From positions 5,704,001-5,768,000 of the forward strand of contig NZ_LT907842.1 of assembly GCF_900215245.1 (NCBI RefSeq): a stretch of 64,000 bases of DNA, read 5' to 3'. The stretch comes from Pseudomonas fluorescens (lineage in GTDB: Bacteria; Pseudomonadota; Gammaproteobacteria; Pseudomonadales; Pseudomonadaceae). Below, piece by piece: positions 973-24,535 of this stretch (positions within the stretch are counted from its first letter, which is position 1; each line of letters starts with the position of its first letter). The notes under the pieces are model-generated. The model saw nothing but the letters and a program-made list of their open reading frames with translations, was not told where the DNA came from and ran no database searches. A program made the translations under genes and the position numbers.

Positions 973-1746
973 ATGACGCTGATCCGTTCACTGTGCGCTG
1001 CCGGCCTGCTGCTGGGCAGCGCCCTTCCCGCCTTCGCGGCCAGCGAAAGTCCCGCCTACGGCCCTGAACTGCAAGGGTTTCAATACCCCTACCCGGTCGA
1101 ACACTTCACCTTCGAGTCCCAAGGCAAACCGTTGCAGATGGGTTACATGGATGTGCCCGCCGAGGGCAAGGCCAACGGGCGCACGGTGGTGTTGATGCAC
1201 GGCAAAAACTTCTGTGCGGCCAGCTGGGACGCGTCGATAAAAGCCCTCAGCGCCGACGGTTATCGGGTGATTGCGCCGGACCAGATCGGCTTTTGCACCT
1301 CCAGCAAGCCGGATCATTACCAATACAGTTTCCAGCAATTGGCGATCAACACCCACCAACTGATTGAACATCTCGGCATTCAAAAGGCCACCCTCGTCGG
1401 CCACTCCACCGGTGGCATGCTCGCCACCCGTTACGCGCTGCTCTATCCGGCGCAAACCGAGCAACTGGGGCTCGTTAACCCCATCGGCCTGGAAGACTGG
1501 AAAGCCCTGGGCGTGCCCTACCGCAGCGTCGACCAATGGTATGCGCGCGAGCTTAAACTCAGTGCCGACGGCATTCGCCAATATGAGCTCAACACCTATT
1601 ACGTCGGGCGCTGGAAGCCTGAATACGAGCGCTGGGTGGAGATGCTCGCCGGCTTGAATAAGGGGCCGGGGCATACCCAGGTCGCCTGGAACTCGGCGTT
1701 GATTTACGACATGATCTTCACACAACAAACGGCAATGTGGGGATGA
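973..1746 (+). pseudogene. Alpha/beta hydrolase, 5' part, split by the integrated element
   Basis: This is the N-terminal part (about 250 host residues) of a secreted alpha/beta hydrolase. It starts with a signal peptide (MTLIRSLCAAGLLLGSALPAFA) and carries the HGKNFCAASW oxyanion region and the nucleophile elbow GHSTGG (Ser). The host sequence ends at codons for IFT at 1714-1722; the remaining codons to the stop at 1744-1746 come from the element. The acid and His of the triad lie in the distant 3' part (24536-24800). Joining the parts at the CTTCAC core restores one frame of about 337 residues, so the gene is interrupted rather than decayed. Confidence 0.9.
1716..1721. other. attL core (CTTCAC)
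   Basis: Left crossover core, placed by comparing the broken hydrolase with its 3' part. Host sequence reads into ATCTTCAC here and element sequence (acaacaaacggc) follows. The same six bases occur at 24530-24535. Short cores are typical of large serine recombinases, whose true crossover is only 2 bp within the shared stretch. Confidence 0.8.
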
Positions 1747-1820
1747 ATGACGGAGCTTATCCGTATGGGGCGGGACGTGCAACCTGTAGCGGGGTGTTGC
1801 GGGGATATGGGCGGTTAGCC

Positions 1821-2117
1821 CTACTCGTATTTCTTGCCAGTGATGACCAAGGCTGATGGCCCCCGCTGCTTCAAGAAGGTTTCAGACTCAGCACTGGTTA
1901 CGCACCGGGTCTTAACTTCTATCTTCGGGTCTTTCACGTTGTTCTTCTTTGCCTCCTGCAAGATTTGCTCTGTGGTCTTCCTTTCAATCGAACTGGCGCC
2001 TGTGTAACAGCTAACCAACCCAAGATACTGTGTGTCTATCAACTTCTCTTTCTGACAATGGTCTTCATATCCTGTTGCTGAAACACAAAAACTGAACACA
2101 ACATAAAAGAATCCCAT
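1821..2117 (-). CDS. Small secreted or membrane-anchored protein, unknown
   Basis: 98 residues. The N-terminus MGFFYVVFSFCVSATG is a short hydrophobic signal-like segment. The rest is charged with several cysteines (EDHCQKE, GLVSCYTG, KTRCVTS), suggesting a secreted protein with disulfides or a lipoprotein-like anchor. Start chosen at 2117 because AAGGAG lies 8 bases upstream. It is the last element gene before the left end. I do not recognise the family. Position at the element edge fits accessory cargo. Confidence 0.6.
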   Translation of the reverse strand: MGFFYVVFSFCVSATGYEDHCQKEKLIDTQYLGLVSCYTGASSIERKTTEQILQEAKKNNVKDPKIEVKTRCVTSAESETFLKQRGPSALVITGKKYE

Positions 2118-2137
2118 CTACACCACTCCTTGGCTAT

Positions 2138-2350
2138 CTAACAGAATGTACAGCCCTCACATCGTTGCACGTAGTGTGTCAATGGTTGGTTGTCTTCCAC
2201 ACTCACTATGAAAGCCACAAGCCCAAACCTAGACGCACAATTCCTCAATGTTGCGGCTGTATCCAATGCTTTGAAGCTGTACATCTCGTAAACATTTGAA
2301 TCGTATCCCTTTTGAACGTACACATTGTGTGTCTGCTGGAGTGTATCCAT
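2138..2350 (-). CDS. Small hypothetical protein with cysteine-rich C-terminus
   Basis: A longer frame reaches 2515, but the internal ATG at 2350 has GGGAG five bases upstream and gives a 70-residue protein beginning MDTLQQTHNVYVQKG. The last residues are CEGCTFC, three cysteines near the stop. No family is recognised. If the upstream start were used, the extra residues would include a hydrophobic segment (FLLTWCAVVIGLLC), which would make it membrane-anchored; the site at 2350 looks better. It follows the gene at 2512-2892 beyond a terminator. Confidence 0.5.
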   Translation of the reverse strand: MDTLQQTHNVYVQKGYDSNVYEMYSFKALDTAATLRNCASRFGLVAFIVSVEDNQPLTHYVQRCEGCTFC

Positions 2351-3701: not shown

Positions 3702-4403
3702 TTACTTCTTGAAGCTTACATCCAGAGCCAGCATCAAGCGACGTACTGTTGTAGGCGACCACAGACCGCCACGGGCTGTGTAGATACCCTTTGTGTTCAG
3801 ACAGTCAGCAAGAGACTGAAGTGTGTTCACGCCTCTGTACAGACACTGCTCAACGTGTGTTCCAACCAACGTGTGGTGGGCTTCCTGCTTGACTGCTTTG
3901 ACTGCATTCATGTTGGTGGTGTTGCCTTTGATACGTCCCTTGGAAAGCGCCTGTGAGCGACGTTCCACTTTAGCTAAGCTCTCTTCACAGCCACTGTCTG
4001 CACGCTCCTGTAGCGCCTTCAAGGCGTCTTTTGTACGCTGGCTGATGAATGCACGTTCCTGTTCTGCCAAGGCTGCAAACAAGTGCAGTTGAAACTTGTC
4101 AGCTTGCGGCATGGTTGCCACCTTGAAGTCAACACGCTTCATCAAGCTGGCTATGTGCTCAACGTCCCGTGACAAACGATCAAGCTTAGCCACCACCAGA
4201 GGCAAACCCTGTGCAATCGCCTTGGAGCATTCAGGACGTTCTAGGGGCGGTGTTGTACCAGAGATTGTTTCAGAGAATTCAGCTACCACTGTCCAACCAT
4301 TTTGCTTGGCTGCTGTTTCAATGTACGAACGTTGAGCCTCAAGACCTAGCCCACTCTCGCCTTGACCTTTGGTAGAAACCCTGATGTAAGCAACAACGTT
4401 CAT
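3702..4403 (-). CDS. Small serine recombinase (resolvase/invertase family)
   Basis: 233 residues. The N-terminal catalytic domain shows YIRVSTKGQ with the nucleophilic Ser near residue 10, then GLGLEAQR, VVAKLDRLSRD with the conserved Arg/Asp, and the long helix region FAALAEQERAFISQRTKDAL. The C-terminal part ends with a putative helix-turn-helix (LADCLNTKG...WSPTTVRRLML). This is resolvase/invertase size and organisation, unlike the large recombinase at the right end. It may resolve dimers or invert a segment. No paired crossover sites were identified nearby. A promoter and a GGA-type site precede it. Confidence 0.85.
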   Translation of the reverse strand: MNVVAYIRVSTKGQGESGLGLEAQRSYIETAAKQNGWTVVAEFSETISGTTPPLERPECSKAIAQGLPLVVAKLDRLSRDVEHIASLMKRVDFKVATMPQADKFQLHLFAALAEQERAFISQRTKDALKALQERADSGCEESLAKVERRSQALSKGRIKGNTTNMNAVKAVKQEAHHTLVGTHVEQCLYRGVNTLQSLADCLNTKGIYTARGGLWSPTTVRRLMLALDVSFKK

Positions 4404-4436
4404 TGTCTGTATTCCTGTTTACTCTGTGTGGTTGTC

Positions 4437-4465
4437 ATTCTACACGTCACAAACACATATGACAA
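4437..4465 (-). promoter_or_regulatory. Sigma70-like promoter of the small recombinase
   Basis: On the minus strand TTGTCA (4465-4460) is followed after 17 bases by TAGAAT (4442-4437), about 34 bases upstream of the start codon at 4403. Confidence 0.5.
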
Positions 4466-4833
4466 ATGTCTGAACGACCATTACCAGAAATGACAAACAA
4501 TGATTACACAGTGTGTCAGCTCACACCTACGGTGTTATGTCAACAGGATTAATTGCTTGTGTTCTATTTGTTGTGTGTTTGTTGGGAATCCTCTTGACTG
4601 GACACACCTTTGTATGAGCGACCTTTGAGAGTGTGAGCTTCGATGTGCCAAGGCACGGTGCTTTCGCATCAAGAGGATTACCACTTGAGAATGTATCCCA
4701 ATACAAACACAAACATATCCATCACCAACCAATCAGCGTATCCGCTGGAGCCGCCATAGGCTCAATGGCTTCTGTGTTCATTGGAAATGAAGGGTTGTCC
4801 TGCTTATGCCTCGGGGCATGGGGCTGTGACTCT

Positions 4834-4849
4834 CTGAACGTCCGTTCAG
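4834..4849. repeat. Palindrome family A, copy 1 (CTGAACGTCCGTTCAG)
   Basis: Perfect inverted repeat with CTGAACG arms around 2 bases. It is followed by TTATATCACT. Same family as 5535-5550 and 5790-5805; likely the operator of a dimeric regulator. Confidence 0.7.
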
Positions 4850-4931
4850 GGGTTATATCACTGGGAGTTTGTCACAACCGTTCTGGGCTGAGAGCCTTAT
4901 AAACCGTGGCTTCCAGCCGAGTGAGACACGT

Positions 4932-4951
4932 TTTTAGTGGACACTATTTCA
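4932..4951 (+). repeat. 20-base motif, copy 1 (TTTTAGTGGACACTATTTCA)
   Basis: Matches 15207-15226 (TTTTAGTGGACAACATTTCA) at all but a few bases in the middle. Both copies lie in the element's two non-coding regions, which suggests a shared functional site. Confidence 0.5.
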
Positions 4952-5534
4952 GAACACCTTACGGCGTCTGAGAGAGAGTTTGCACAGAATGTTGTTGACG
5001 CTCTGCACCATCTATGAGGCTTGGATTGTGTGTTCGCACTTGAGTGTGTGCCACGTCCGTCAGCGTGATATCCCATCTGTCAACTGTTATTCATCACATA
5101 ACACAGATGAGAATCCCTACCATCTCCAAATTGAAGCCTTCCGGCAAATCGTGTGAAATTCCTTGATGGGAATCACTCTCATCTATCTGAGAAGTGTAAA
5201 GATTGCACAGATGTGCGCTGAAGTGGTTGACACATGTTCTTGGTTGTGAATCTGTGGTGATTTCTTCGATTATTTTTCACTTTTGTGCAAAAATCTCTTG
5301 CATGTGCAAAATGGATTTGCTTAGTAAAACAGCACACAGACAAACTACCCTCAAGTGTCACCACCACTGGTAATACGACATCAAGCTAACAAACCGTTCA
5401 AACACACTCTCATCAAAGTATTCACACTCATAAAGCGGTATCAGCAGAAAGGAATACTCCTACAGATAATAGATAGCAAGCTAACAGTATTACTACCCTA
5501 CTCCTGATGGATGATTTAACAGTGGTACTACTCT

Positions 5535-5550
5535 CTGAACGGACGTTCAG
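5535..5550. repeat. Palindrome family A, copy 2 (CTGAACGGACGTTCAG)
   Basis: Inverted repeat with CTGAACG arms and a 2-base centre, preceded by CTCT as at copies 1 and 3. Followed within 35 bases by GTGATATA. Confidence 0.7.
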
Positions 5551-5565
5551 AAGCTTACATACCTA

Positions 5566-5579
5566 GTGTCGTGAGACAC
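5566..5579. repeat. Inverted repeat GTGTC-N4-GACAC
   Basis: Sequence GTGTCGTGAGACAC. Related in arm sequence to the repeat at 5685-5699. Confidence 0.55.
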
Positions 5580-5658
5580 AGTGATATACCAGTCAAACAA
5601 GAAACATAACAACCAACTATCAAATGAGCTAACCGCTCTTATATTGGTGCAGAAAGCC

Positions 5659-5673
5659 TTGTCAGAATGACAA
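5659..5673. repeat. Inverted repeat TTGTCA-N3-TGACAA
   Basis: Perfect 6-base arms around GAA. Lies between the other palindromes upstream of the FRG gene. Confidence 0.55.
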
Positions 5674-5684
5674 AGGATATACCC

Positions 5685-5699
5685 GTGTCGGTACGACAC
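5685..5699. repeat. Inverted repeat GTGTCG-N3-CGACAC
   Basis: Perfect 6-base arms around GTA; shares GTGTCG with the repeat at 5566. Confidence 0.55.
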
Positions 5700-5775
5700 A
5701 GAGTTACTATCTCTTTAGGTTTCTTGTTTCTATTGTTGGTTGTATGTGGGAACCACATCAGGCGAGAACACTTGA

Positions 5776-5805
5776 AGTGATATATCACTCTGAACTGACG
5801 TTCAG
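5776..5805. promoter_or_regulatory. Abutting palindromes upstream of the FRG gene
   Basis: A perfect 14-base palindrome, AGTGATATATCACT (5776-5789), directly joins palindrome family A copy 3, CTGAACTGACGTTCAG (5790-5805). The pair ends 86 bases before the FRG start codon, a normal place for an operator. Confidence 0.6.
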
Positions 5806-5891
5806 GGGCTGCACAACAGGTGCTCTCTTGCGGCTCTGGATTATCGGCCCGTACACTTGGATACAACCAACGGAACAAGGATCAAGCAACG

Positions 5892-6818
5892 ATGGGAAGC
5901 CCAACTGAGATAGCCTTTGAGACTGCACGTCAGTTGCTTGACCACGTTTCGCCTCTAAATGACGCTTGGAAAAACGGGAAATACGTCTTCAGGGGTCAGC
6001 CAAGCGACGAGTACAAACTAACCCCTTCTGTGTGTCGTAATGGCGAAGGCTCATTTGGGTACGGCTCCCCTCGAAGAATGTTTGATAAGTCAAGCTCGGG
6101 CCAAGTCCGCTTTGAGTTAGACATTCTGAAGAAGTTTTTAGATGGCTGTGACCGGTCTGGGCTGATTGTACCCGGATATACAGAACAGATTAGAGACAGG
6201 CTGATAACTGCTCAACACTCGTTCATGAGTGGACACAGACCTTGGCCTCAGCCAGAAATGCACCAAATCATGGCGATAGCTCAACACTATGAAGTGCCAA
6301 CCCGCCTCCTAGATTGGACTGATCGAAGCTTTGTTGCATGTTATTTTGCAGCAGCATCAGCAAGCTTTGAGATTGACTTTATGGGGATGCCAAAGATTGC
6401 TGTGTGGGCGCTGGAAACAACTTCTGCACCTTTCTGGAAAACGATAAAGATCATTCGACCACCGGGAGGCACAAGTCAGAATCAAGCGGCTCAATCTGGT
6501 TTGTTCACTGCTCACCATGCGACGGATTACAGTGTAGACGACACATACAAGGCTGACGCACTTGAAGACGTTCAGGAGATATACGACATAACAAACGGCT
6601 ATGCTCCACTTATCAAAATGACGCTACCATTAAGTGAGGCACCTGACTTACTGGATTTGTGTTCTAAGATGGGCATTGATGGCTCAACTCTCTTCCCCGG
6701 ATTCCACGGTGTGGCAAAGATGGTTAAAGATTGGGGTAATGTCGAGATTGGTGTTAGACACACTCGATCAGCAATAGACGAATATAACGCTGAGGGTTAT
6801 GACCCTGACTTCGACTGA
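5892..6818 (+). CDS. FRG-domain protein, likely anti-phage cargo
   Basis: 308 residues from ATG 5892 (AAGGA about 10 bases upstream); an upstream in-frame ATG at 5820 lacks a good site. FRG signature: YVFRGQ near residue 31-36 and AQHYEVPTRLLDWT near residue 140, with further aromatic-rich segments to the C-terminus. FRG domains recur in bacterial defence islands and abortive-infection loci; the biochemical activity is not settled. It is the only well-supported plus-strand gene of normal length in the element, convergent with the spike gene and behind a dense operator region. That is the arrangement of an independently controlled cargo gene protecting the lysogen against other phages (inference). 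Confidence 0.85.
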   Translation: MGSPTEIAFETARQLLDHVSPLNDAWKNGKYVFRGQPSDEYKLTPSVCRNGEGSFGYGSPRRMFDKSSSGQVRFELDILKKFLDGCDRSGLIVPGYTEQIRDRLITAQHSFMSGHRPWPQPEMHQIMAIAQHYEVPTRLLDWTDRSFVACYFAAASASFEIDFMGMPKIAVWALETTSAPFWKTIKIIRPPGGTSQNQAAQSGLFTAHHATDYSVDDTYKADALEDVQEIYDITNGYAPLIKMTLPLSEAPDLLDLCSKMGIDGSTLFPGFHGVAKMVKDWGNVEIGVRHTRSAIDEYNAEGYDPDFD

Positions 6819-6859: not shown

Positions 6860-7615
6860 TTAGGCTGTTGGCAATCCAGATACACCACTACCCGGTGTAA
6901 CCCCGGCGTGTTTGTGGGTGTCAAATGGAATCCCGTTGAATGTCCATGTTCCGCTGATAGTGGTGTTGCCTGTCCATGTGGTGTTAGGCACATTCACTTT
7001 CAGAGAAGAGGCATTGATAGAGACACTGTTGCTTGCGTTCAGCTCAATGTCTTTAGCAATAACTTTCACTGTGAATTGTGAGTTGATTTCAACGTTGCCG
7101 TCTGCTTTGAGAGTGACGTTTGTTTCTGCACCAGTCCCTGTGTTGTGGATGATGGTTAGATCATTCGCATCTCTTGGGAGTTTCAAGCTCTGGAGTTGTT
7201 GAGCAATCACGCCCGGTGGAGCCAACCCCGGAAAGAACACAACATCCATCTCATCCTTCATCCGGTTGTTATTCACTTTGGTAGGATTGGAGTTGGAAGC
7301 AATCTTGAAGTTATCTAGACTGTTATCGGCAACATCGCACCACCCTTCATCACCTACGCTAACAGGGAAGAGGATTGCACTTCTGTGAGTTCTGATATGG
7401 CCAATAGGAACATTGAGGATGTGCAAGTCATCCATGTTTTCCCCATCGTCGGTGTACCGTTGAATCAAAGACTTCACTGTCACGGATGGAACAGCGGTAT
7501 TATTGACGCCAACTACAACAGCGGGAAAGCCTGTTCTAGCGTTGTCGTTGTGGTTATGAATCTCTGTTTTGATAACGTCGATATAGGACGCGTCTGGATA
7601 GGTAATATTGAACAT
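6860..7615 (-). CDS. Phage baseplate spike protein (Gp138/gpV-like)
   Basis: 251 residues. The N-terminal half (PAVVVGVNN, then VKSLIQRYTDDGENMDDLHILNVPI and ILFPVSVGDEGWCDVAD) looks like the OB-fold region of Gp138/gpV-type spikes. The C-terminal half is a beta-helical repeat (NVTLKADGNVEINSQ...DIELNASNSVSINASSLKV). The end, FDTHKHAGVTPGSGVSGLP, carries the HxH pair that binds the apical metal ion in such spikes. It is the membrane-piercing tip of a contractile-type tail. Start ATG 7615 overlaps the upstream stop (TAATG), so translation is coupled. Confidence 0.85.
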   Translation of the reverse strand: MFNITYPDASYIDVIKTEIHNHNDNARTGFPAVVVGVNNTAVPSVTVKSLIQRYTDDGENMDDLHILNVPIGHIRTHRSAILFPVSVGDEGWCDVADNSLDNFKIASNSNPTKVNNNRMKDEMDVVFFPGLAPPGVIAQQLQSLKLPRDANDLTIIHNTGTGAETNVTLKADGNVEINSQFTVKVIAKDIELNASNSVSINASSLKVNVPNTTWTGNTTISGTWTFNGIPFDTHKHAGVTPGSGVSGLPTA

Positions 7616-7865: not shown

Positions 7866-8222
7866 TTATTTGGATTTGATTGCTGAGTTTGGGCTTGTTG
7901 TGATTGCTGGATTTGCAGTTTGATTGATGTTGATAGGCGAAACACTGTAGATAGCGTCTCGGGCCTTCAATGGGACTTGAATATCAATGTACTGCTTGAG
8001 TTGTTCATTGCCGTTGTTAATCTGCATCCTGAAAGAATCAGATTGAGCAAGAGACGTTCTTACAATCTCCTGCCTCATCATGGCAATGTCTTGGCTTCTT
8101 GTGACTTGATACTCATTGAGTGTGATGTGGGCATTGACCGTTAAGATGCAGCACCCAATCAGGACAGTGAAACAAGCTGCAAGAAGCCAACCCCAAACTT
8201 TATTATCTAGGGCTGACGACAT
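7866..8222 (-). CDS. Membrane-anchored protein, paralog of the 18700-19137 product
   Basis: 118 residues. One N-terminal membrane segment (VWGWLLAACFTVLIGCCILTV, about residues 9-29), then a helical stretch and a C-terminal motif NINQTANPAITTSPN. The same plan, with VQQTANPIINVSPT at the end, is found in the protein at 18700-19137. The membrane anchor and long periplasmic or cytoplasmic helix recall spanin-like or holin-associated proteins, but no lysis partner is seen. The start overlaps the tape measure stop (TAATG), so it is co-translated with tail genes. Confidence 0.6.
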   Translation of the reverse strand: MSSALDNKVWGWLLAACFTVLIGCCILTVNAHITLNEYQVTRSQDIAMMRQEIVRTSLAQSDSFRMQINNGNEQLKQYIDIQVPLKARDAIYSVSPININQTANPAITTSPNSAIKSK

Positions 8223-10537
8223 TAGTTGCCTCTTGCTTGGGACTGTGTAGCAGCGGCTCTTGCTGGACTCAACTTGTTAACAATGTCCTGCATCGTTCTT
8301 TCGGTTTCTCGACGATGATCCTCAAGCACTCCTTTCATTTCTTCAGGAGCAACACCGTTTAGGGTGATTGGTGCTTGGTTGAGTGTGATTGTGTTAACAA
8401 CGTTGTTATTGACAGCAGAAGCGGCGGCTTGTCCGTTTACAGCAGGTTGAACAAGTGGCGTCTTTGGAGTTGCACCCACCATGTTAGGGAAGGCTTTAGG
8501 GCCAGCATCAGGAGCAACAACAGTGTCTAGCTTTGGAATATCACTACCATCAGTTAGACGCCAAGGCGCTGTTGGGTCAACATTGCCAGCAGGGTTAGGC
8601 ATAGGGCCACCGCCCTGACGGTCTAGCTCTCGTCTTGCAACGATATCTGCACGTTGCTTGTCGTCAACTTCACGCTGCTTAACAATCTGGTCATACTTGT
8701 CATCATCAATCTTACCAACAAAGTGCAAACCATCTTGAACCTTGCGTAGTAGGTATGTGATTACATCAGCAAATGTAGTGATTGCATCAACGACAGCCGT
8801 AATCACTCCAATCAGAGTTTCACCTACAGTCTTGAACACACCAACATCATCAGCAATACCAAAGGCTTGCTTGATCGTGTGGTAGTAAGTAGTGAAGCTT
8901 GTTCCTAGCTCATCCATTGCAGAGCTAAGGTCTTGCATAAACTTAGGATCAAAGTAGCTCTTGCCGTTGTTAAACCAGTTGGCAAGCTCAGTCAAACCCT
9001 TAACCATACCTGTAACACCGTCAAGCACCGTGCTAGAAGAACGGCCCAAAGCTTCAAACTGTGGCTCAATAGCTTTTAGGAACTCTACAAGGCTGCTGTA
9101 TAGGGCAGGCATTGTGGTTTCCAATCCAGTGTTGTCAAAAGCAGAAGCCATGTTTGCTTGGTATTGGTTGGCGATTCGGTTATCCCAAGAGTCTTGGGTG
9201 TTGCGGGCTTTATCCAACAAGCCACCGTCATTAGCATGTTGATCCAGTGTCTTACCGAGTTCCATCATGAATCTTGTAAGTGCATCACCACTGATCTTTC
9301 TGTCTTGACGATCCTTACCGAAAGCTTTCAAGGCTTCATCACCAGTTAGCTTGCCACCGGATGCTTTTTGCCAAGCTTCAGCACCAAACTCGTTGGCGTG
9401 TGCCCCAAGGTGTTCTGCAATTTGGCCTGTCCATTCTTCAGAGAAGAGTTGACCTTTACCAAGGGCTTGACGCATACCAAGACTAATCTTAGACATATTT
9501 TCGTTAGACAAGTGTTGAGCCTTACCATATCTGAAGATGCCTTCAGCAGTGTTAGCAGCTTTATCAACTCCAACTTTAGAAGACAATGCACCAACGATTT
9601 TAGAGTAATCTGCTCCAAGCTCTTTTGTGGATAGTCCTTCTGTTTGTGCGAAGTTCTCAAAACGGTTGTTCATACGTGCAGCGTTCTCAGGAGTCTTATC
9701 TCCTACAGCTTGGAACTGCCCAAGGCGTTGGTTTCGAGTGTTAGCAGCTCGTTCAGCCGCTCGGGCAAAACCTGTGGAAGCGGCAACGATTGCAGCGAAT
9801 GCAGCCACTACCAGAGCAGCGGCACCAGCTACAGCACCCAACCCCATTGCTGCACGGCCTAGACCACCTGCAAGCCCTTCCAAGCCACCTAGAGCGCCTT
9901 CAGCACCACCAGTGACGCCACCAGCGAAACGACCAACACCGCCAAAGCGGTGAATGGCGTGGCTACCTACACCAAGCAAGCCACCGCCGTGAGCGGATCG
10001 TGGGCCACCGTGCCCAGGAGTGTTAGCCTGTCCTGCTGCACGTCTGTTTGCGGCATGTTGTTGTGCTGCTGCACGGGCTGCACGGATTTGGTGTTGCTGC
10101 TGGAGGTTGGCTAGACGGGACTGTTGAATCTGGTGTCCCACGGCTTGAGCGTGTTGCAAGGCTTGAGCTTTTGCAGCGGCATAGGCTGCTTTCTGTTGTT
10201 GTGCTGCCAACTGAGCTTGTTTGATCTGTAGAGCCACCTGTTGTTGCTGTGTCTTCAGACCACTTGCTCGGCTACTATTGTTGATCTTGGCAAGCTTGGC
10301 ATTCTGTAGCTGTGCTTGATGTTGAGCTTTGGTTTGTGCCTGTTGTGCAACAACCATGTTCTTAGCTGCCTGTCCTGCACCACCTGTACCCTTCAAAGCT
10401 TTATCAATGGCTTTACCAGTGTTACGGGCTTGAGCTTCGAGAGCTTTCATTACTGCTTTGGCTTGTTGGATTCCCTTTAGGTCAACCTTGAAACCAATCT
10501 TGGCGAATAGCTCGCCTAGTTCTTGATCAGTAACCAT
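8222..10537 (-). CDS. Phage tail tape measure protein
   Basis: 771 residues, the largest product of the element. The first 220 residues are Ala/Gln-rich coiled coil, then a Gly/Ala membrane-like segment (LGAVAGAAALVVAAFAAIVAA, about residues 235-258). A tape-measure core domain follows (RFENFAQTEGLSTKELGADY...FSEEWTGQIAEHLGAHANEFG...DALTRFMMELGKTLD). Such proteins set tail length and may enter the host envelope during injection. Start ATG 10537 overlaps the upstream stop as TGATG; a GTG lies 3 bases earlier. No frameshifted chaperone pair is seen immediately upstream. Confidence 0.9.
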   Translation of the reverse strand: MVTDQELGELFAKIGFKVDLKGIQQAKAVMKALEAQARNTGKAIDKALKGTGGAGQAAKNMVVAQQAQTKAQHQAQLQNAKLAKINNSSRASGLKTQQQQVALQIKQAQLAAQQQKAAYAAAKAQALQHAQAVGHQIQQSRLANLQQQHQIRAARAAAQQHAANRRAAGQANTPGHGGPRSAHGGGLLGVGSHAIHRFGGVGRFAGGVTGGAEGALGGLEGLAGGLGRAAMGLGAVAGAAALVVAAFAAIVAASTGFARAAERAANTRNQRLGQFQAVGDKTPENAARMNNRFENFAQTEGLSTKELGADYSKIVGALSSKVGVDKAANTAEGIFRYGKAQHLSNENMSKISLGMRQALGKGQLFSEEWTGQIAEHLGAHANEFGAEAWQKASGGKLTGDEALKAFGKDRQDRKISGDALTRFMMELGKTLDQHANDGGLLDKARNTQDSWDNRIANQYQANMASAFDNTGLETTMPALYSSLVEFLKAIEPQFEALGRSSSTVLDGVTGMVKGLTELANWFNNGKSYFDPKFMQDLSSAMDELGTSFTTYYHTIKQAFGIADDVGVFKTVGETLIGVITAVVDAITTFADVITYLLRKVQDGLHFVGKIDDDKYDQIVKQREVDDKQRADIVARRELDRQGGGPMPNPAGNVDPTAPWRLTDGSDIPKLDTVVAPDAGPKAFPNMVGATPKTPLVQPAVNGQAAASAVNNNVVNTITLNQAPITLNGVAPEEMKGVLEDHRRETERTMQDIVNKLSPARAAATQSQARGN

Positions 10538-14408: not shown

Positions 14409-14414
14409 TATGTT

Positions 14415-16592: not shown

Positions 16593-16764
16593 TGTTGCTA
16601 GCTCCTTGAAGGTCGGCTTGGGATAGGGTTTGTTGTGTTGCTTTGTAGATCGTGTTGCAGTCGTGGCAGCAAACTGGCTGGTACTTCTTACGGGTGAACT
16701 GCTTCTCGCAGACACGGCAAATAAGAACCTTCAGAGCGCCACCACGTTTGTTTTGAACGGGCAT
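16558..16764 (-). CDS. Zinc-knuckle protein 2
   Basis: 68 residues. Knuckle ICRVCEKQFTRKKYQPVCCHDC near residues 15-37 (C-x2-C, CC-x2-C), with a basic N-terminus (MPVQNKRGGALKV). First gene after a strong promoter at 16886-16913 and overlapping the 445-residue gene, so the two form an operon. AGGAG precedes the start. Probably nucleic-acid or protein binding. Confidence 0.6.
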   Translation of the reverse strand: MPVQNKRGGALKVLICRVCEKQFTRKKYQPVCCHDCNTIYKATQQTLSQADLQGASNNESTIEHTNSR

Positions 16765-17019: not shown

Positions 17020-17814
17020 TCATTTGTCAGGCGGCACGTACTCCAACACACTCTTTCCGGCGTAGCTGGATGGTGCATTAGCAACGTTGTCTGTGCCTGC
17101 TTTGGTCTTGATCTTTCCGTTTTTACGGCCTTTGTTATTCCTGATCTTTACAGCAATGTTTCGAGTGTTGGCGTAAACAACCTGCTCAAAAGCCAGCTCA
17201 GGGAAAATCCCGTCCCCTGTTTGCGTGTTCTCTTCAAAGGCAACGTTAGTGAAGACACAAGGGCCATAAGAACCAACGTTCAATCCACCTAGCAACTCAA
17301 TCACTTGGAACTCTTCCGAGTTTTGCCACATGCTGATTAGCTGGCGTTTCACCGCTTGAGACGATTTAGACTTTTCTTGAGGTGTCAGAATAACTGTAGG
17401 GATTGTGTCCCTTGTGAACTGTGCAATCACCTCTGGTAGAAGCTTGTTGATAGAGCCTACAGTGCTAATCTGAACAGGCGTCACAACCTGTGTGCTGTTC
17501 TTGTACTGCTTGTCACGTGGCATGTACAAACCATTTGCGTCAGTAGACACGTGGTCGCCAGTATCAAAAGAGAAAGCAGGGATTGCACCCAAGGTAGTTG
17601 GTCGGTTGATATTGAAGTCAGCATCAGACAGAACACCACTGATGGTGTACTTTGGGTTCTCTCTTGTTGTGTGGTCTGTAATCAAACTACCGTTAGAAAG
17701 TGGGTGCTTGGAGATGGCAGAGCTATATTGCTCTGTAATGCGAGTGATTGCGTCGAAGTAGATTACGTCAGATGTTTTAGTGACAATGACGAATCCAGAA
17801 AATGAAGCGTCCAT
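17020..17814 (-). CDS. Dit-like phage tail/baseplate protein
   Basis: 264 residues from ATG 17814 (AAGGA 8 bases upstream); the frame extends to 17886 without a site. The N-terminal part (FSGFVIVTKTSDVIYFDAIT ... NGSLITDHTTRENPKYTISG, VLSDADFN) matches the pattern of Dit-like N-terminal domains: a beta strand, then 'dg..itDH' and 'i.i.G..sd'. A later part has (SMWQNSEEFQVIELLGG) and (VFTNVAFEENTQTGDGIFPE), as expected for such proteins. The C-terminus is basic (NNKGRKNGKIKTKAG). It would form a ring joining tube and baseplate. A terminator follows. Confidence 0.55.
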   Translation of the reverse strand: MDASFSGFVIVTKTSDVIYFDAITRITEQYSSAISKHPLSNGSLITDHTTRENPKYTISGVLSDADFNINRPTTLGAIPAFSFDTGDHVSTDANGLYMPRDKQYKNSTQVVTPVQISTVGSINKLLPEVIAQFTRDTIPTVILTPQEKSKSSQAVKRQLISMWQNSEEFQVIELLGGLNVGSYGPCVFTNVAFEENTQTGDGIFPELAFEQVVYANTRNIAVKIRNNKGRKNGKIKTKAGTDNVANAPSSYAGKSVLEYVPPDK

Positions 17815-17934
17815 ATGTTTGTTCCTTATATTGGGCGTGCAGAGGGCCACAAGCCTGCTTGAGAGGCTTTGTAGGCTTACTGGCATGTTGGCTTAGGTTT
17901 GTAGCTTGAGTGGCTGTATAGCTCTGCGGGAGCG

Positions 17935-18216: not shown

Positions 18217-18666
18217 TTAAGCCACAAACTTAAACTTGACGCTCTCAAGCATCTTGCCTGTGTCGTACAACGGACGGTCGAAGCCTTTAGCTGCAATCGT
18301 TCTTGCACTGTTGCTACCCGGATAGTTGGCAATCGTGATCTTGATTTCCTCAGCAACGATCTTACCTAGGGTGGCAAGGATGCGGCGTGCATTGCCTGTG
18401 TTATGGATCGTGGCCCGAGCTGCTGCCATGAGTCCTTTAAGTAGTTTTTTGCGTGTCTGCTTGTCTTCAAGTGTTTCACGCATGAATGGGCGTTCAGGGT
18501 GAAAGCGTGTTCCAAACTCGTTGTATGCCGCCACTTGAGCAACTGGCATACCATCGTCATATCTGTCTTCCTCAAAGAATCCTACTTTAACCTTTGTAGC
18601 GGCCAGCGTTTTTAGGCGTCTGGCCAGATTGTCAAATCCTTTGAGATTAAGTGTCGTCGTTATCAT
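18217..18666 (-). CDS. HK97 gp10-like tail-completion protein
   Basis: 149 residues from ATG 18666 (AGAGAG upstream); an ATG 12 bases earlier has no site. The pattern (LARRLKTLAATKVKVGFFEED), PVAQVAAYNEFGTRFHPERP, FMRETLE... and the ending DRPLYDTGKMLESVKFKF matches gp10-like/neck proteins: 'vGff....Y.yg.va.yNEfGt..iPeRPFmr' and 'PLidTG.l..si'. These proteins complete the tail before or at head joining. Its presence is notable because no head genes are seen. Confidence 0.75.
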   Translation of the reverse strand: MITTTLNLKGFDNLARRLKTLAATKVKVGFFEEDRYDDGMPVAQVAAYNEFGTRFHPERPFMRETLEDKQTRKKLLKGLMAAARATIHNTGNARRILATLGKIVAEEIKITIANYPGSNSARTIAAKGFDRPLYDTGKMLESVKFKFVA

Positions 18667-18699
18667 AATCTCTCTCATTGTTGTGGGGTTGTTGCTGTG

Positions 18700-19137
18700 T
18701 TACTTCCCTTGATTGTTGTTGTATGTTGGGGACACATTGATAATGGGGTTGGCTGTCTGTTGAACATTAACCCCAATGTTTCTATGAGCCTCAGCGGCTC
18801 TGTCTCTTACTAGCTTCATCATTTCCTTTGAATCTGCTTTGAACATCAAGTCTTCAAGCTTACGTGTTACTCTGTCAGTCTCTTGAAGCTGAAGATTAAT
18901 ACGGGCTTCAGATTCTTCTGTCCTGAGTCTAAGGCTGGCAATGTCCGTCTTGATTGGCATCAAGCTTTTATCTACAAGCTCCTTCTGCACAGTGATGTTA
19001 TCGAACTGGTATTGCTCCACTCTTCCAGTCGTTATGAACTGGGGAATGAAGACAATCCCCAGAACCAGAAGTGTTGCCATGATGAGGCCGTGTAGATACG
19101 TCATTGGACGTTGAAGCGGGGATTGTTTTTCATCCAT
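18700..19137 (-). CDS. Membrane-anchored helical protein, paralog of the 7866-8222 product
   Basis: 145 residues. One membrane segment near residues 14-35 (LHGLIMATLLVLGIVFIPQF), then a long helix with heptads (TEESEARINLQLQETDRVTR, KLEDLM) and a C-terminal motif (VNVQQTANPIINVSPTYNNN). The other protein has the same N-terminal anchor and NINQTANPAITTSPN. The shared ending suggests a common binding partner. It is placed among tail genes. A role in assembly at the membrane or in envelope disruption is possible. Confidence 0.6.
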   Translation of the reverse strand: MDEKQSPLQRPMTYLHGLIMATLLVLGIVFIPQFITTGRVEQYQFDNITVQKELVDKSLMPIKTDIASLRLRTEESEARINLQLQETDRVTRKLEDLMFKADSKEMMKLVRDRAAEAHRNIGVNVQQTANPIINVSPTYNNNQGK

Positions 19138-19150: not shown

Positions 19151-19546
19151 TTAGATTGGCCCTAACTGGCTACCCCCATAGGAACGTGTGGAGGGTTTAG
19201 GACTGAAGTGGGTAAGGCATTGTTTTAGTTTGCCCATGAATAGCCCCTTGTCACGGCCAGAGAAGACTTCATCAGCAGTGCCAGCAATGCCGATTTGAAT
19301 AGCTTTGTTCATGAAGTCTTCCACAGCATCTACAAGGAACATGTTACCGACGTAAGAAACAATCACACTCTCTTTGGTGCGAAACCAGAAGAAGTGATAG
19401 TTGGTTACGTCAGGGTGTCTACGCTTGAGCATCATATTGAAGTGGCGTCCAAGACGCTTTAAGTCAATACGACCTTTCAACTCGTAAACTACAGAATGAA
19501 ACCCTTCTTTCTGAAGAGTCTCAATGTGTCTTTTGATTGTTGGCAT
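19151..19546 (-). CDS. Hypothetical tail-module protein
   Basis: 131 residues, starting MPTIKRHIETLQKEGFHSVV. Strong AGGAGG site before ATG 19546. Basic N-terminal part, hydrophobic middle (ESVIVSYVGNMFLVDAVEDF), C-terminus (GKLKQCLTHFSPKPSTRSYG). It lies between the chaperone-like gene and the membrane protein. I do not recognise it. Confidence 0.55.
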   Translation of the reverse strand: MPTIKRHIETLQKEGFHSVVYELKGRIDLKRLGRHFNMMLKRRHPDVTNYHFFWFRTKESVIVSYVGNMFLVDAVEDFMNKAIQIGIAGTADEVFSGRDKGLFMGKLKQCLTHFSPKPSTRSYGGSQLGPI

Positions 19547-19557: not shown

Positions 19558-20385
19558 TTATTGGTTTTGCTTAGCCTGCCTCACAGACTCTTTGTGCATT
19601 TCGCAAGACTCGAAGTATTGTTTAACTGCAATCTCATTCATGTCGTGTGCATCCTCTAGATTGAGGCATGTAGAGAGTTCAGCGTATGTAGCCAAATCCA
19701 ACTGACTGTTGAGGATGCTGTAGATAATGCCAGCCTGACTAAAGCCAGCAGCCGACCTTTCCAAAGACTTTGGTGGAGCAATGCCCCCGCTGTCGTAGTT
19801 CTCAGGAAGAGCGAATCTAACTGTGTTCCACACTGGTGCTACGTTGTGCCCTACAAATGCGTAAAGCATCTGGGCAATCTGAGGCATTGTGAGTGAGGAA
19901 ACATCAACTGGCTCATCATCTAGGGTGATGTACTTGAAGAACTCACCAAACACAGAATCAAAGTCTGTAGACGCTTCTTGTTTGTTCGTAGCTTTGTAGT
20001 CAATGACATAACTCATTGGGGCTTGCACGTGAGCCTCTACAACTTCCTCCCTGTCTTCCAGAGTATTGCCAGCCAAAACTTCTCTAACCGTGAGTTTACT
20101 TCCTCTTGTGTCAGAGCTTGGGCGTTCAAACACTTTGTATGGTGCGTTGGGGTTTGCAACACGATCTATGAACATAAGCAATGCTAGAAACTGGCTGCTA
20201 GCAAATCCAGCCAATGGCATAATCTGATTGTTCATAAAGGAGTATGTACCCTCTTGCATCACGACACTGAACGCACTAATGGCTGTAGCGTAGTTTTCGA
20301 TTAATTCACACGCTTCTGTTGCTGGATGATGTTTGATCTTGTATGTTCTATCGTCAACGACGAACTTCTTTGTACTGATTGGCAT
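19558..20385 (-). CDS. Possible tail assembly chaperone-like protein
   Basis: 275 residues with an AGGAGG site before ATG 20385. The N-terminus FVVDDRTYKIKHHPATEACE resembles tail-assembly chaperone families that start with a short beta hairpin and then 'pat.a..l...l'. The later segment (SLTMPQIAQMLYAFVGHNV) is helical. At 275 residues it is longer than most such chaperones, so it could be a different tail protein. The gene follows the hub-like gene and precedes others of the tail module. Confidence 0.4.
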   Translation of the reverse strand: MPISTKKFVVDDRTYKIKHHPATEACELIENYATAISAFSVVMQEGTYSFMNNQIMPLAGFASSQFLALLMFIDRVANPNAPYKVFERPSSDTRGSKLTVREVLAGNTLEDREEVVEAHVQAPMSYVIDYKATNKQEASTDFDSVFGEFFKYITLDDEPVDVSSLTMPQIAQMLYAFVGHNVAPVWNTVRFALPENYDSGGIAPPKSLERSAAGFSQAGIIYSILNSQLDLATYAELSTCLNLEDAHDMNEIAVKQYFESCEMHKESVRQAKQNQ

Positions 20386-20430: not shown

Positions 20431-21378
20431 TTAAAGGACAGTGATGTCACTGCCACTCATTTCAGAGCATTGACATTCTGCATACCAATCATTACCGCGA
20501 GTGTCACCATTAAAACGCACGCTGTCGATTCTGTAGAAACCATTAATGTTGTCGGATTCCAGTTTCACAACCGTACTTGGCAGAAGAGCAGCGTCTAGCA
20601 GCACCTTGAACTGCAAGCCGTATCTAATACGCTTGTCTTTCTTAGGTAGTTTGGTTTGTTTTTGAGTGCGGAATGGGGTTTCAATCATCCCTGTTTCAGA
20701 AGAGATAACTGGACACAGCACTGTAGACTTTGTATCTGGCCCATTTACATCTGTTACAGTCAGGACGTTGTTAGAGACGTGATACTCAAGACCGTAAGCC
20801 TTTGTCAGTTTGTCCAACATATCCTTGGGAGTGCCAGACAAGCGCCAACCTTGAACCACTGGGCTATTTAGGTTTGTGCCTACGATAGAACCACGGGACA
20901 CACCGGGCATGTTGTCTGTGATGATGCGGAGAACGTCTTCAACTGTTTGGCCGGGGCTAGCCATTGCACTGAGACGGGTTTTTGTGAGGTTGACATATCC
21001 GTCACCAACAATCAGTTGTGTGATTGTGTCTGCTCCACGCTTGATAGTGGATTGGTCAGTGACGTTACCGCTAACAAGAAGTTTGCGGCCCTCTTCATTC
21101 TTGTAGCCAACATAGAGAGACACTTCTAGGTAGTGACTATCAAGAAGTCTTTCTTGTTCAGGGTTGAGGTTGTAGATTTCGATAGAGGCAGAGTTGCCGT
21201 TGTTGTTCTTATGGTCAGATGTTTTGCTAACATCGAATGTGATGCGGAGAGAGTCAGAGCCATAACCAGAACCTTCAATCTCGATTCCTTGGCCTTTGTT
21301 GTAGTTACCAACAGTTAGGGTGTAAAGCCTTTCAGACTTGCGGGTTAGCTGGGGATCGGTGTTTGTAGTTGTCGCCAT
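20431..21378 (-). CDS. Baseplate hub-like protein (gp27/gpP-type)
   Basis: 315 residues. The N-terminal part (LRITFDVSKTSDHKNNNGNS, ASIEIYNLNPEQERLL) is typical of hub proteins that begin with a field-like beta domain. The middle shows VEDVLRIITDNMPGVSRGSI and WRLSGTPKDMLDKLTKAYGL, then YHVSNNVLTVTDVN, matching the hub pattern 'sG.a.e.L..la...g..w.v.dg.l.i'. Such proteins hold the spike on the baseplate. AAGGA precedes ATG 21378. It overlaps the end of zinc-knuckle gene 3 by 34 bases. Confidence 0.65.
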   Translation of the reverse strand: MATTTNTDPQLTRKSERLYTLTVGNYNKGQGIEIEGSGYGSDSLRITFDVSKTSDHKNNNGNSASIEIYNLNPEQERLLDSHYLEVSLYVGYKNEEGRKLLVSGNVTDQSTIKRGADTITQLIVGDGYVNLTKTRLSAMASPGQTVEDVLRIITDNMPGVSRGSIVGTNLNSPVVQGWRLSGTPKDMLDKLTKAYGLEYHVSNNVLTVTDVNGPDTKSTVLCPVISSETGMIETPFRTQKQTKLPKKDKRIRYGLQFKVLLDAALLPSTVVKLESDNINGFYRIDSVRFNGDTRGNDWYAECQCSEMSGSDITVL

Positions 21379-21557
21379 AGTTGGATTCCTTGATGTTGTG
21401 GGCGTAGGGCTTGCACGATTGTTTGAACGGACATAATCAGAGCCTTGTGGTTGTGGTGATTGATGCGGCAGGACTTACCAGTGCAGAAAACCTTACGGGC
21501 TGTCTTGCATGGCATGGTGCACCCACAGTGTTTGCACTTACGTTCGGTGATAGTCAT
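21345..21557 (-). CDS. Zinc-knuckle protein 3
   Basis: 70 residues from ATG 21557 (AAGGA 9 bases upstream); the frame extends to 21731 through a terminator and is not used. Knuckle KCKHCGCTMPCKTARKVFC near residues 7-26, then GKSCRINHHNHK. The end (IVQALRPQHQGIQLWRQLQ) is helical. It is the first gene after a promoter and overlaps the hub gene, so it heads the tail operon and may regulate it. Confidence 0.6.
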   Translation of the reverse strand: MTITERKCKHCGCTMPCKTARKVFCTGKSCRINHHNHKALIMSVQTIVQALRPQHQGIQLWRQLQTPIPS

Positions 21558-21627
21558 TCTGAATGTTCCTTTGAAATAGATAGTTGTGACACTTAGGTTA
21601 ACGGTACTAAACATCAGGCATGAAAAA

Positions 21628-21645
21628 GGCCACGCTGTGGTGGCC
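21628..21645 (-). terminator. Terminator upstream of the hub operon
   Basis: On the minus strand GGCCAC, loop CACAGC, GTGGCC, then TTTTTC. It lies between the promoter at 21720 and the start at 21557, so it may act as an attenuator. Confidence 0.6.
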
Positions 21646-21719
21646 CTTTCAAATGCACTTGCCCAATGCAACACAACCAGTGAATCCAGTAACAAATACT
21701 TCTTCCTAATGTGTACTAC

Positions 21720-21748
21720 AGTATAACACACGTATCACAATCACACAA
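21720..21748 (-). promoter_or_regulatory. Sigma70-like promoter of the hub operon
   Basis: On the minus strand TTGTGT (21748-21743), 17 bases, TATACT (21725-21720). Transcription would pass the hairpin at 21628-21645 before the zinc-knuckle 3 start. Confidence 0.5.
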
Positions 21749-22187: not shown

Positions 22188-22859
22188 CCTCTTGTGTGTT
22201 TGTGTAACACATCATACCACAGAACAGGAAAATCACATAACACTATCTTACGCTGAAGACAAGATATTACACACTCAAGGCAACAACCACAGAGAAGGAG
22301 GGATAGTAGCCATTGCCAAGAGTGTGAAACAAGTACGCACCAGACCGCTAGGTCAGATGGTTTGAATATGGGTGATTATCAGTATGAGGATAACTCTTTG
22401 TCATCCTGACATATAGAAGCAAGATCAAAAGCAGAAGCTTTCTTGTCCTGTGTAGACATTGTTATGTGTTGGCTGTGTGTCAGACAGAGTAGTGTTGGTG
22501 CAGAAGACGTTAAGATCAACAGCCGCCCGTTCCAGTGGGAGCGTACACACTTCGCTACACTCAGTGTACGGGCAGACCGGGGCCATGTCAAGACAATTTA
22601 CACACGAATGACACAATTCTGTGTGCAATGCTTTATAGGTTGTGTATGTGTTACCTGTATAACAATGGAAGCTCTTGAGAGCGCGTATGGGCCGTTTTAC
22701 CCATCTTGGGTATGCAGACGTACTAGCAAGCTCACACAAGCCCCTATACAGCCTCATAGAAGCCATAACGCAAAAAGCCCCATGAGGGGCTGTATCACTT
22801 GAGAGTGTGAAAGCCTAGCGCTGGTATTCCAAAAGGCTTAAAGCGTCTCTGAGGGCTTC
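22188..22859. other. Intergenic stretch between the recombinase and the first element gene
   Basis: About 670 bases. It holds the recombinase terminator (22776-22791), TTGTCA/TGACAT-type inverted repeats near 22398-22412 and a TACACT-C-AGTGTA palindrome near 22556. Short frames on both strands (for example 22425-22766 minus) lack ribosome sites and domains, so no gene is called. It is likely a regulatory region. Confidence 0.45.
22776..22791 (-). terminator. Terminator after the serine recombinase
   Basis: On the minus strand AGCCCC, loop TCAT, GGGGCT, then TTTTTGC; 69 bases after the recombinase stop. Confidence 0.75.
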
Positions 22860-24455
22860 TCAGGAGCTTGGAGACACACCTTTGAAGTTTACCAGCTTCA
22901 CCCTTTCGAGCTTCCCGGCGAGTCCTGACATAACGTCTATAGGCTCACTCTTCTTGGCAGTCTTCCTAGGCTCCTGTCTAACAACTGGCAGCTTCAACAT
23001 CTGGCCTTGTGGGTTGACCACCTTGTGCACGTCCTCAGACCGCCCCCAACCCTCATAGATGAATGTCCCGGCAGGCGTATCAATCGTCCTGTTGACATTG
23101 CAGACAATCTTGTAGCCAACCGACTGAAGCAAAGCGTTGGCCTTGAGTGGGTCTAACATGATGTCTGTCATGTTAGTTATCTGATCCTTCACAGTCACGC
23201 TACCGTGTTGCAATGACTTCTTTTCAGACTCCAAGGAACGGCGCTGAGCCTTCAAGTCATTCAATGACACAATCAACTCTTCTACATCATCAACCTCAGC
23301 GACAGCCCTTGCCACTTTCGTAATCTTCACACTCAAATCTTTCAACTCACCATCAATCACAACTTCACGCTTCTGACTATCTGTGAGTATCTGGCCTTCT
23401 AGGGCGTCCTTGATGTGTTTCCAGCACGATAGTTGAAAAGCATAGGCAATCACACTCTCTGGAATACCCTTGCTGTTAGAACACGCTACAGAGCCTCGGC
23501 GGGCACGGCTTGAACATTCCATCACAGCGGGCGGAATAGCTCCCTTTGTTCTTTTGCTGTAACTCTTTGTGTTGAAGTTCTTTCCACAATCACCACACAC
23601 AACTAATCCTGTGTATTTGTGTTTGATTGGTGCAGAGCGTGGAACAAATTTAGCTTCCATACGTTTCTGCACACGATAAAACAACTCAGGTTCCACAACC
23701 ACAGGATACACATTCGGGATACCTTGCCACTCACCTAACACAGTGCGATTTGTCATCCAACGTTTAACAGTGCTGGGCGCCATACGTGCAAGGAGTGGGT
23801 TTGTGTTGCCTTCAAAGATACGTTCAAAGATGCGACGTTCTCCAAGACCGCTGGCGTAGTCTTCAAATGCCTGCTTAACCAACGGTGCAATCTCAGGAAT
23901 CAACTCACCTTCTGAGGTTAACCACACAGGCGTGTGACGCTTAGGTGTTACTCCTGCCAGTGCCAGTGTGTTACGGCTCTTGTAACTGGCCTTCATACGA
24001 ACACTGAGAGTTTCAGAGTAGTTAAAGGCAGCTTGCACCTTACCAACGAGAATGTAGAAGCTACCGCCCCTCAAAGACTCTTGTGTGTACACCTGATTGT
24101 CATCAAGCGTCACAAGAGACACACCAGCATTCAAGATGTTGATCAACACACCCGACATGATGCCCGGTTCCATACGTCCTGCACGGTCGATAGCCTCAAC
24201 CAACACAACGTCTCCAGCACCAATAGCGCCCTGTTCGATTGCTTCAAGGAGCTTGCCGAAACCGCTTTTAAGGTGCCTGCCGCTACGGCCAGAGATGCCC
24301 AAATCTTTAAAGGACAGCTCACGGTTTAAGGTGAATGCAGGGTTAGCTTCGGCCCAACGGTCAAGCATGGCCTGTTGACGCTCAAGGCTGCTACCCTTCT
24401 GCTGTTTCCCGGTGCTGAAGCGGATGTAGGAGTATGCGTTGTTCACTTTAACCAC
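22860..24455 (-). CDS. Large serine recombinase (site-specific integrase)
   Basis: 531 residues if started at GTG 24455 (GTG 24446 also possible). The longer frame to 24770 runs into host DNA and cannot be the native start. The N-terminal catalytic domain begins AYSYIRFSTGKQ with Ser near residue 14, then LERQQAML, DLGISGRSGR and EAIDRAGRMEPG. Next is the recombinase domain (PLVKQAFEDYASGLGERRIF), and a zinc ribbon (VVCGDCGKNFN, later CSSRARRGSVAC). A coiled coil follows, then an extended tail. It sits just inside attR, as expected of an integrase that inserts at CTTCAC in the hydrolase gene. A partner recombination directionality factor was not identified. Confidence 0.9.
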   Translation of the reverse strand: MVKVNNAYSYIRFSTGKQQKGSSLERQQAMLDRWAEANPAFTLNRELSFKDLGISGRSGRHLKSGFGKLLEAIEQGAIGAGDVVLVEAIDRAGRMEPGIMSGVLINILNAGVSLVTLDDNQVYTQESLRGGSFYILVGKVQAAFNYSETLSVRMKASYKSRNTLALAGVTPKRHTPVWLTSEGELIPEIAPLVKQAFEDYASGLGERRIFERIFEGNTNPLLARMAPSTVKRWMTNRTVLGEWQGIPNVYPVVVEPELFYRVQKRMEAKFVPRSAPIKHKYTGLVVCGDCGKNFNTKSYSKRTKGAIPPAVMECSSRARRGSVACSNSKGIPESVIAYAFQLSCWKHIKDALEGQILTDSQKREVVIDGELKDLSVKITKVARAVAEVDDVEELIVSLNDLKAQRRSLESEKKSLQHGSVTVKDQITNMTDIMLDPLKANALLQSVGYKIVCNVNRTIDTPAGTFIYEGWGRSEDVHKVVNPQGQMLKLPVVRQEPRKTAKKSEPIDVMSGLAGKLERVKLVNFKGVSPSS

Positions 24456-24529
24456 CGTGTTTGCTGGGGCTTCTGGCCTCTGGGGCCATTCTACCACTGG
24501 TTTGGAGGAGAACCCCACAGTGCCGCTTA

Positions 24530-24535
24530 CTTCAC
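24530..24535. other. attR core (CTTCAC)
   Basis: Right crossover core. The host frame resumes here as TTC ACC CAG (F T Q), continuing the hydrolase broken at 1716-1721. Confidence 0.8.

Follow-up and report, generated by a model that had tools for sequence, protein, structure and literature searches.

Locus and predicted tail genes

The window analyzed here is a 64,000-nucleotide stretch of the Pseudomonas fluorescens genome (contig NZ_LT907842.1, positions 5,704,001 to 5,768,000) that carries an integrated element at positions 1716-24535. Identical CTTCAC copies lie at both ends, the left attachment core (1716-1721) inside a split alpha/beta-hydrolase gene and the right one at 24530-24535, with 22,814 bp between them; these are the exact borders, common core, and divided host gene described in an earlier note on this DNA. 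The hydrolase gene is intact at this point in all 14 of the relatives' loci compared, and the GC content is 44-50% within the element versus about 56-67% outside. At one border is a gene for a large serine integrase (22860-24530, minus strand; start codon uncertain), matching phrog_95 (6.6e-53) and the Pfam domains Resolvase, Recombinase, and Zn_ribbon_recom, in agreement with the earlier assignment as a large serine recombinase. A second, small serine recombinase (3702-4403, minus strand) matches phrog_125 and Pfam Resolvase. At the same hydrolase site, the genome G032 (L132/L133) has a different element of ~7.9 kb with a related integrase and without recognized tail genes.

Six genes, all on the minus strand, code for predicted tail proteins. 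The PHROGs profile scan covered 30 of the 31 listed open reading frames (ORFs) of the element, the 68-aa ORF at 16558-16764 being left out. The baseplate hub (20431-21378) matches phrog_196 (1e-70), and a hub profile matches gp85 of PDB entry 9zd7 (3.9e-118). The tail completion, or Neck1, protein (18217-18678) matches phrog_222 (1.3e-44), with no solved structural relative found, and the Dit-like baseplate protein (17020-17886) matches phrog_817 (5e-36), Pfam Dit_like, and 9zd7 gp83 (1.4e-41). The 772-aa tape measure protein (TMP; 8222-10540) matches phrog_2335 (5e-7) and, below its cut-off, Pfam TMP_3; it also matches a 788-aa chain of 9zd7 named gp88 (3e-7), a chain name that we leave uninterpreted. 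The baseplate spike, or tail tip (6860-7615), is weak in PHROGs (0.027) and is backed by Pfam and by solved structures, including 9zd7 tail tip gp86 (3.3e-33). The structural matches of hub, Dit-like protein, and spike thus all fall within a single PDB entry (9zd7/9zd8), on three chains, one of them named tail tip. These genes, and their order of hub, completion, Dit, tape measure, and spike, are as first stated.

The sixth protein (19558-20385; 275 aa), overlooked in the earlier note, is by its sequence matches a tail assembly chaperone (TAC) with its N and C parts in a single frame. The C part matches phrog_4625 (1.3e-9) and also a small ORF that sits between the chaperone and TMP genes in phage loci; the N part aligns with the phage TAC-N (hhalign, probability 91%, against a set of eight frames, three of which, L022, L028, and L033, were wrongly picked). 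The P. aeruginosa counterpart (222 aa) matches two named chaperone PHROGs as well as phrog_4625, and a sequence search of PDB with the chaperone returned unrelated weak matches only. In phage Adele, the long chaperone form is argued (PMC12846349) to arise by ribosomal frameshifting, whereas both parts share one frame in the element. As read from these matches, what the element supplies is an inner tail set (chaperone, tape measure, Dit-like protein, hub, spike, and neck) rather than complete tails, as its proteins include no recognized sheath, tube, wedge, or fiber protein.

The profile search that the earlier note had proposed gives no significant match to a terminase, portal, capsid, or protease among the scanned ORFs, as that note had found by inspection. 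The protein encoded at 18700-19137 has matches at noise level to a head maturation protease (E 0.28) and an Rz-like spanin (E 0.017). One result stands against the reported absence of a lysis gene: the Dit-like protein also matches phrog_1517, described as an endolysin (4.8e-10 over 53 residues), as does its P. aeruginosa counterpart. We rejected this protein as an endolysin and read the match as a common N part, because Pfam Dit_like and the 9zd7 chain both identify it as Dit-like, and no lysis gene is accepted. The element has no recognized gene set for autonomous virion production, as is characteristic of phage satellites; neither the capsid and packaging genes of the cf-PICIs nor the complete sheath, tube, and fiber set of a tailocin is recognized.

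Relatives in phages and in Pseudomonas

The closest phage group to the element in tail proteins is that of the Otagovirus- and Flaumdravirus-type myoviruses (about 90-102 kb), such as VCM and KIL4. These phages are lytic, and the VCM gene listing contains no integrase. The hub is 50-52% identical to the best 30 of 1,092 matching phage records, and identities to VCM are 52% for the hub, 49% for Dit, 46% for the neck protein, 39% for the spike, and 22% over part of the TMP, which is 787 aa in VCM and 784 aa in KIL4. Unlike the element, these phages are complete (93-99 kb), and genes for the head, replication, and lysis are all present in them. A phylogenetic tree of hubs places 12 from satellites or chromosomes across one branch from 15 of phages, with support (88/86) that is not decisive; when more distant rows (PAER and JUb52) are added, two changes are needed. 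The host genome also contains a second, distant hub match (G000:C1:3985417-3986232; 24% identity), which probably belongs to another phage-like element.

A sister element of ~23.9 kb occupies another location in Pseudomonas sp. W4I3, within an FKBP-type gene; 28 of the 31 listed element proteins have counterparts there, with the order unchanged. The tail proteins of the two elements are 79-95% identical, and their ratios of nonsynonymous to synonymous substitution (dN/dS) are 0.078 for the hub, 0.078 for the neck protein, 0.150 for the chaperone, 0.136 for Dit, 0.154 for the TMP, and 0.136 for the spike. The six tail genes are under purifying selection, and the element is not a decayed prophage; the earlier argument against decay is borne out by the retention of tail genes and gene order in W4I3 and by dN/dS values of 0.08-0.15. 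The integrase (39% identity) and zf486, a hallmark zinc-finger protein (34%), are far more divergent than the tail proteins, as would be expected of exchanged modules. Some relatives have a phrog_1 or phrog_216 integrase, which we take to be of the tyrosine type, in place of the large serine recombinase.

The gene for zf486 (15255-16601, minus strand) has no significant PHROGs or Pfam family and a predicted structure of no use (pLDDT 45.6); we infer a candidate replication or regulatory protein. It is present in 23 of 398 Pseudomonas genomes, its own included, and was found in none of 274 gammaproteobacterial genomes outside its own and in none of 50,697 phage records; among 28 IMG/VR stretches none was confirmed. 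In the genome G256 (L126-L129), zf486 is matched at two separate places, and a large integrase lies close to each. Three distant members of the 23 (G251, G265, and G286) were not followed, and the element loci compared number 25: that of the window, those of W4I3, of a P. aeruginosa record, and of two IMG/VR records (L017 and L018), and 20 more drawn from 19 genomes. The search for the gene set in other Pseudomonas genomes suggested in the earlier note thus recovered the same tail genes and order in W4I3 and a family of 25 loci. We found no description of this family in the open-access literature, as judged by titles, the starts of abstracts, and passages.

The second hallmark protein, o211 (12446-13081, minus strand; true start inside), has its cluster in 24 of the 25 loci. 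It combines a DUF1737-like part with a long helix (model pLDDT 82). Neither PDB nor the viral models yield a match to its predicted fold, which is partly DUF1737-like, at E <= 0.001; weak viral fold matches include a protein of Pseudomonas phage vB_PaeM_C2-10_Ab1. Because a close form of o211, P0092, is listed with 96 contigs, the window's element may occur in many sequenced isolates.

TMP is present in 15 of the 25 loci, 13 by clustering together with the IMG/VR records L017 and L018, and is 725-774 aa in 12 of the 13 clustered loci, window included; the G095 form is divided between two reading frames. Clusters of hub and Dit proteins are limited to five loci (the window, W4I3, P. aeruginosa, L017, and L018), so that TMP is the sole recognized structural gene in ten loci (e.g., G078, G164, G227, G271, and G135). 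At the other extreme, the P. aeruginosa member adds two tube-like proteins to the tail set. Both belong to phrog_280, a family in the head and packaging category of PHROGs; we rejected them as head genes and read them as tube-like because both match VCM virion structural proteins located between sheath and chaperone, and the one with which PDB was searched gives chains bearing the name tube or tail tube protein. The P. aeruginosa record L013 (pHPA0698-2) is labeled a plasmid and includes chromosome-type genes (minCDE); the family's satellite in it encodes tube-like, Dit, TAC, TMP, hub, and spike proteins.

No head genes appear in the PHROGs families listed for 145 proteins from 20 relative loci, a listing of 25 of 36 and 25 of 62 matched families, so a lone single-member head match is possible among the remainder. 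These proteins were chosen from 211 ORFs of at least 85 aa; shorter ORFs were left out, as was, in 18 loci, one ORF spanning the junction between two stretches, in many cases zf486. The W4I3 and L017 proteins were compared with the window families only, and ten proteins each were scanned from the P. aeruginosa record and from L018/L174 with L171. Within that coverage, no relative with an intact head module, which the earlier note had named as a possible refutation, is recognized. One relative encodes a 275-aa protein (L174:5714-6541) with a phrog_3360 N part and a helix-turn-helix (HTH) C part that is weakly similar to small terminase subunits (E 0.001), possibly serving packaging redirection there.

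The record L171 (MT836130.1), a human stool sequence submitted under the name Bacteriophage sp., is a family member in integrated form, with host flanks like those of G306; we considered it as a packaged satellite and rejected this, since with host flanks present it offers no evidence of packaging. It gave no zf486 match; the corresponding place is taken by a protein of 206 aa that matches HTH/RepL weakly (E 0.17). In L018 the zf486 position is occupied by a different, 348-aa protein with an HTH match (L018:10135-11181), which hints that this slot may carry an exchangeable replication or control protein.

A phage endolysin start and other features

Adjoining zf486 is a long noncoding region (13968-15254, minus strand), which in alignment with W4I3 consists of two conserved blocks flanking a variable one. 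The first conserved block holds two copies of a palindrome-like sequence, GTGAACATCGTTCAC (minus strand), 109 nt apart (14953-15076) and kept in W4I3. The variable block contains a near-exact copy (14630-14735, minus strand) of the 5' part of an Otagovirus endolysin gene, which begins at the ribosome-binding site and reaches approximately codon 24. Leaving aside an insert of 22 nt (14658-14679), 83 of its 84 positions agree with VCM. The copy matches 14 phage records (best E 1e-19), all of 96-101 kb; they represent 11 different phages, ten of them Pseudomonas phages and the other a Pectobacterium phage. A transcript running with the tail genes would be antisense to the endolysin start. Compared with the tail genes, which are old relatives, the endolysin piece is recent; it points to direct contact with a VCM-like phage as its source, and directly names a candidate helper group.

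The predicted RNA fold of 14580-14800 is more stable than shuffles (z = -3.18), and a perfect 12-bp hairpin (14600-14625) lies beside the copy. A promoter and terminator scan of 13960-15260 gave about as many sites as in shuffled sequences, Rfam gave no match at gathering scores, and the exact endolysin and palindrome patterns were not found in IMG/VR. A search of the other noncoding stretch, 4404-5819, returned a single 30-nt match.

Beside that stretch, in divergent orientation (5820-6818, plus strand), is a gene matching Pfam FRG and PADLOC PDC-S15, with counterparts in W4I3 and at the G201 locus; by sequence this candidate defense gene is likely cargo. The remaining genes described here are on the minus strand. 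A small zinc-finger protein (21345-21731; CxxC motifs, start uncertain) and a small membrane-anchored protein read from sequence (18700-19137) both have counterparts in W4I3, L017, and L018. The family of s131 (19151-19546) occurs in 7 of the 25 loci and adjoins TMP also in some relatives without other tail genes. Directly upstream of TMP is o137 (10537-10950), which matches phrog_5067 at 0.016 here and at 2.1e-11 in its P. aeruginosa counterpart, and downstream is another small protein (7866-8222) read from sequence as membrane anchored.

A probable satellite with chimeric tails

These findings describe an integrated serine-integrase element with conserved, selected inner-tail genes homologous to those of Otagovirus-type phages. 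A plausible counterpart is provided by the PLE satellites of Vibrio cholerae, which exploit a lytic myovirus and carry genes for a TMP, a chaperone, and in some cases a hub of their own (PMC12987554), and which have a large serine recombinase (PMC6002521). The window element likewise has the serine integrase, TMP, chaperone, and hub. In PLE11, particles contain the satellite's own TMP and hub alongside most other tail parts of the phage, and loss of tmp lowers transduction by 96% for PLE1, 99% for PLE4, and about 99.9% for PLE11 (PMC12987554). PLEs also make an abundant noncoding RNA, located between inverted repeats and with antisense homology to leaders of PLE genes, and their core genes include RepA and LidI (PMC7567579); a noncoding RNA of this kind and a lytic myovirus partner would be further likenesses to the element. 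The descriptions of the PLEs also set the element apart, as it has a wider tail set (also Dit-like protein, spike, and neck), hallmark proteins that this analysis found in Pseudomonas alone, and a partner group that would be Otagovirus-type rather than ICP1. By analogy, the best reading is of a separate Pseudomonas family that would work like the PLEs. Other satellites are more distant: the cf-PICIs share partial virion gene sets, some reportedly with a putative tmp (Extended Data Fig. 10 legend of PMC12987554), but they form capsids, and no capsid gene is recognized in the window element. Phi AH14b, also satellite-like and in Pseudomonas, has one tail-assembly-protein-I homologue, but differs in its tyrosine integrase, P4-like primase, and lack of head-neck-tail proteins by VIRFAM (PMC4936722).

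We consider it likely that the element is a satellite of Otagovirus-type Pseudomonas myoviruses that parasitizes them by building chimeric tails. As its parts are of the same kinds as those of the PLEs, with a wider tail set, we propose that it would excise upon helper infection, and that its chaperone, tape measure, Dit-like protein, hub, spike, and neck protein would replace their helper counterparts in tail assembly. With no sheath, tube, wedge, or fiber recognized, the tails would be chimeric, these parts coming from the helper, and would join helper-made heads containing satellite DNA, in which the satellite would be released. The zf486 protein and the adjoining noncoding region may serve replication or control, and a transcript antisense to the helper endolysin start may adjust lysis. 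All steps past gene content and conservation are ones that we infer, packaging, induction, and the antisense role included; for mobilization by a helper, the near-exact helper DNA and the homologous tail parts are indirect indications. Among the three guesses of the earlier note, a satellite providing tail parts for another phage's heads is the best supported, with the correction that an inner set and not whole tails would be provided. The tail-completion gene without head genes, which that note had singled out as the oddest part, is indeed present, and would be less odd as a tail-end part that meets a borrowed head.

Several observations weigh against this interpretation. The hub has relatives beyond this phage group, the 1,092 matching records (E <= 1e-5) belonging to many genera. 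Of four satellite noncoding regions compared with phages, a single one has the endolysin copy (W4I3, P. aeruginosa, and L018 having none convincing). A search with the starts of phage endolysin genes yields it from one satellite sequence among 26, and it occurs in none of 397 other Pseudomonas genomes, save two short chance matches. We discarded these two, which have ordinary host genes around them and no element proteins. Ten of the 25 loci, each selected through the hallmark protein, have no detected TMP, and possession of tail genes is therefore not a constant trait of the family. Some window genes are under looser constraint relative to W4I3 (dN/dS of 0.52 for zf128, 0.46 for zf134, 0.49 for o101, 0.91 for zf68, and 0.63 for o92, which is also shorter in W4I3), and no capsid-size or terminase-redirecting gene is recognized in the window element. 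Packaging signal, excision, induction, and particles are all hypothetical in this reading.

Other explanations differ in how much of the evidence they accommodate. The element could be an anti-phage island whose tail proteins act as decoys, spoiling an invader's tails and protecting the population, the element itself not being packaged; interference with tail assembly is a known defense (PMC11364771 and PMC10884400), and the FRG/PDC-S15 cargo is in keeping with it. However, low dN/dS over the whole tail set in the window and W4I3 and a TMP of near-full phage length are more than a decoy seems to need, and the two recombinases point to mobility, making this improbable, albeit compatible with the satellite reading. 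Homology to phage tail genes would also be expected of a reduced prophage, derived from an ancestor of this tail type by loss of head, replication, and lysis genes, as the earlier note had allowed. Yet the same reduced tail set is found at two sites in two strains, apparently by independent insertion and under purifying selection, no head module is recognized in the scanned relatives, and the hub lineage stands apart from phages (with the modest 88/86 support, and two changes with PAER and JUb52), so we think this origin very unlikely. Least probable of all is a self-sufficient tailocin-like particle, acting as weapon or injector, another of the earlier suggestions: tail genes without head genes are what it would call for, but the window element has no recognized sheath, tube, wedge, or fiber and no accepted lysis gene, an integrase is at one border, and many relatives keep TMP only.

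The role of the endolysin copy is a separate matter, and we give an even chance to its being a packaging or replication site taken from the helper, or an accidental capture, instead of an antisense RNA. Its occurrence in one satellite only agrees with this, and the nearby palindromes could mark an origin; against it, the copy covers the span from ribosome-binding site to about codon 24, where an antisense RNA would act, and the RNA is predicted to fold more stably than shuffles, although a fold by itself is weak evidence and promoter and terminator sites are about as frequent as in shuffles. The fuller proposal, that genus-wide Pseudomonas satellites rebuild the entire inner tails of lytic myoviruses and that the window's recently captured endolysin start is a structured antisense RNA timing lysis, is one we put forward tentatively and think rather doubtful as a whole. 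If the antisense RNA is real, a satellite noncoding RNA would be renewable by copying helper DNA.

Chimeric tails were reported for the PLEs in March 2026, the authors calling these the first satellite family known to make them and leaving open the benefit of tail swapping (PMC12987554); the word Pseudomonas does not occur in the main text of that report. If the satellite reading of the window element is correct, a second chimeric-tail family would exist in the laboratory-friendly genus Pseudomonas, with members ranging from TMP only to nearly complete inner tails. Comparison across this range would make it possible to test which tail swaps serve parasitism and which keep the helper out.

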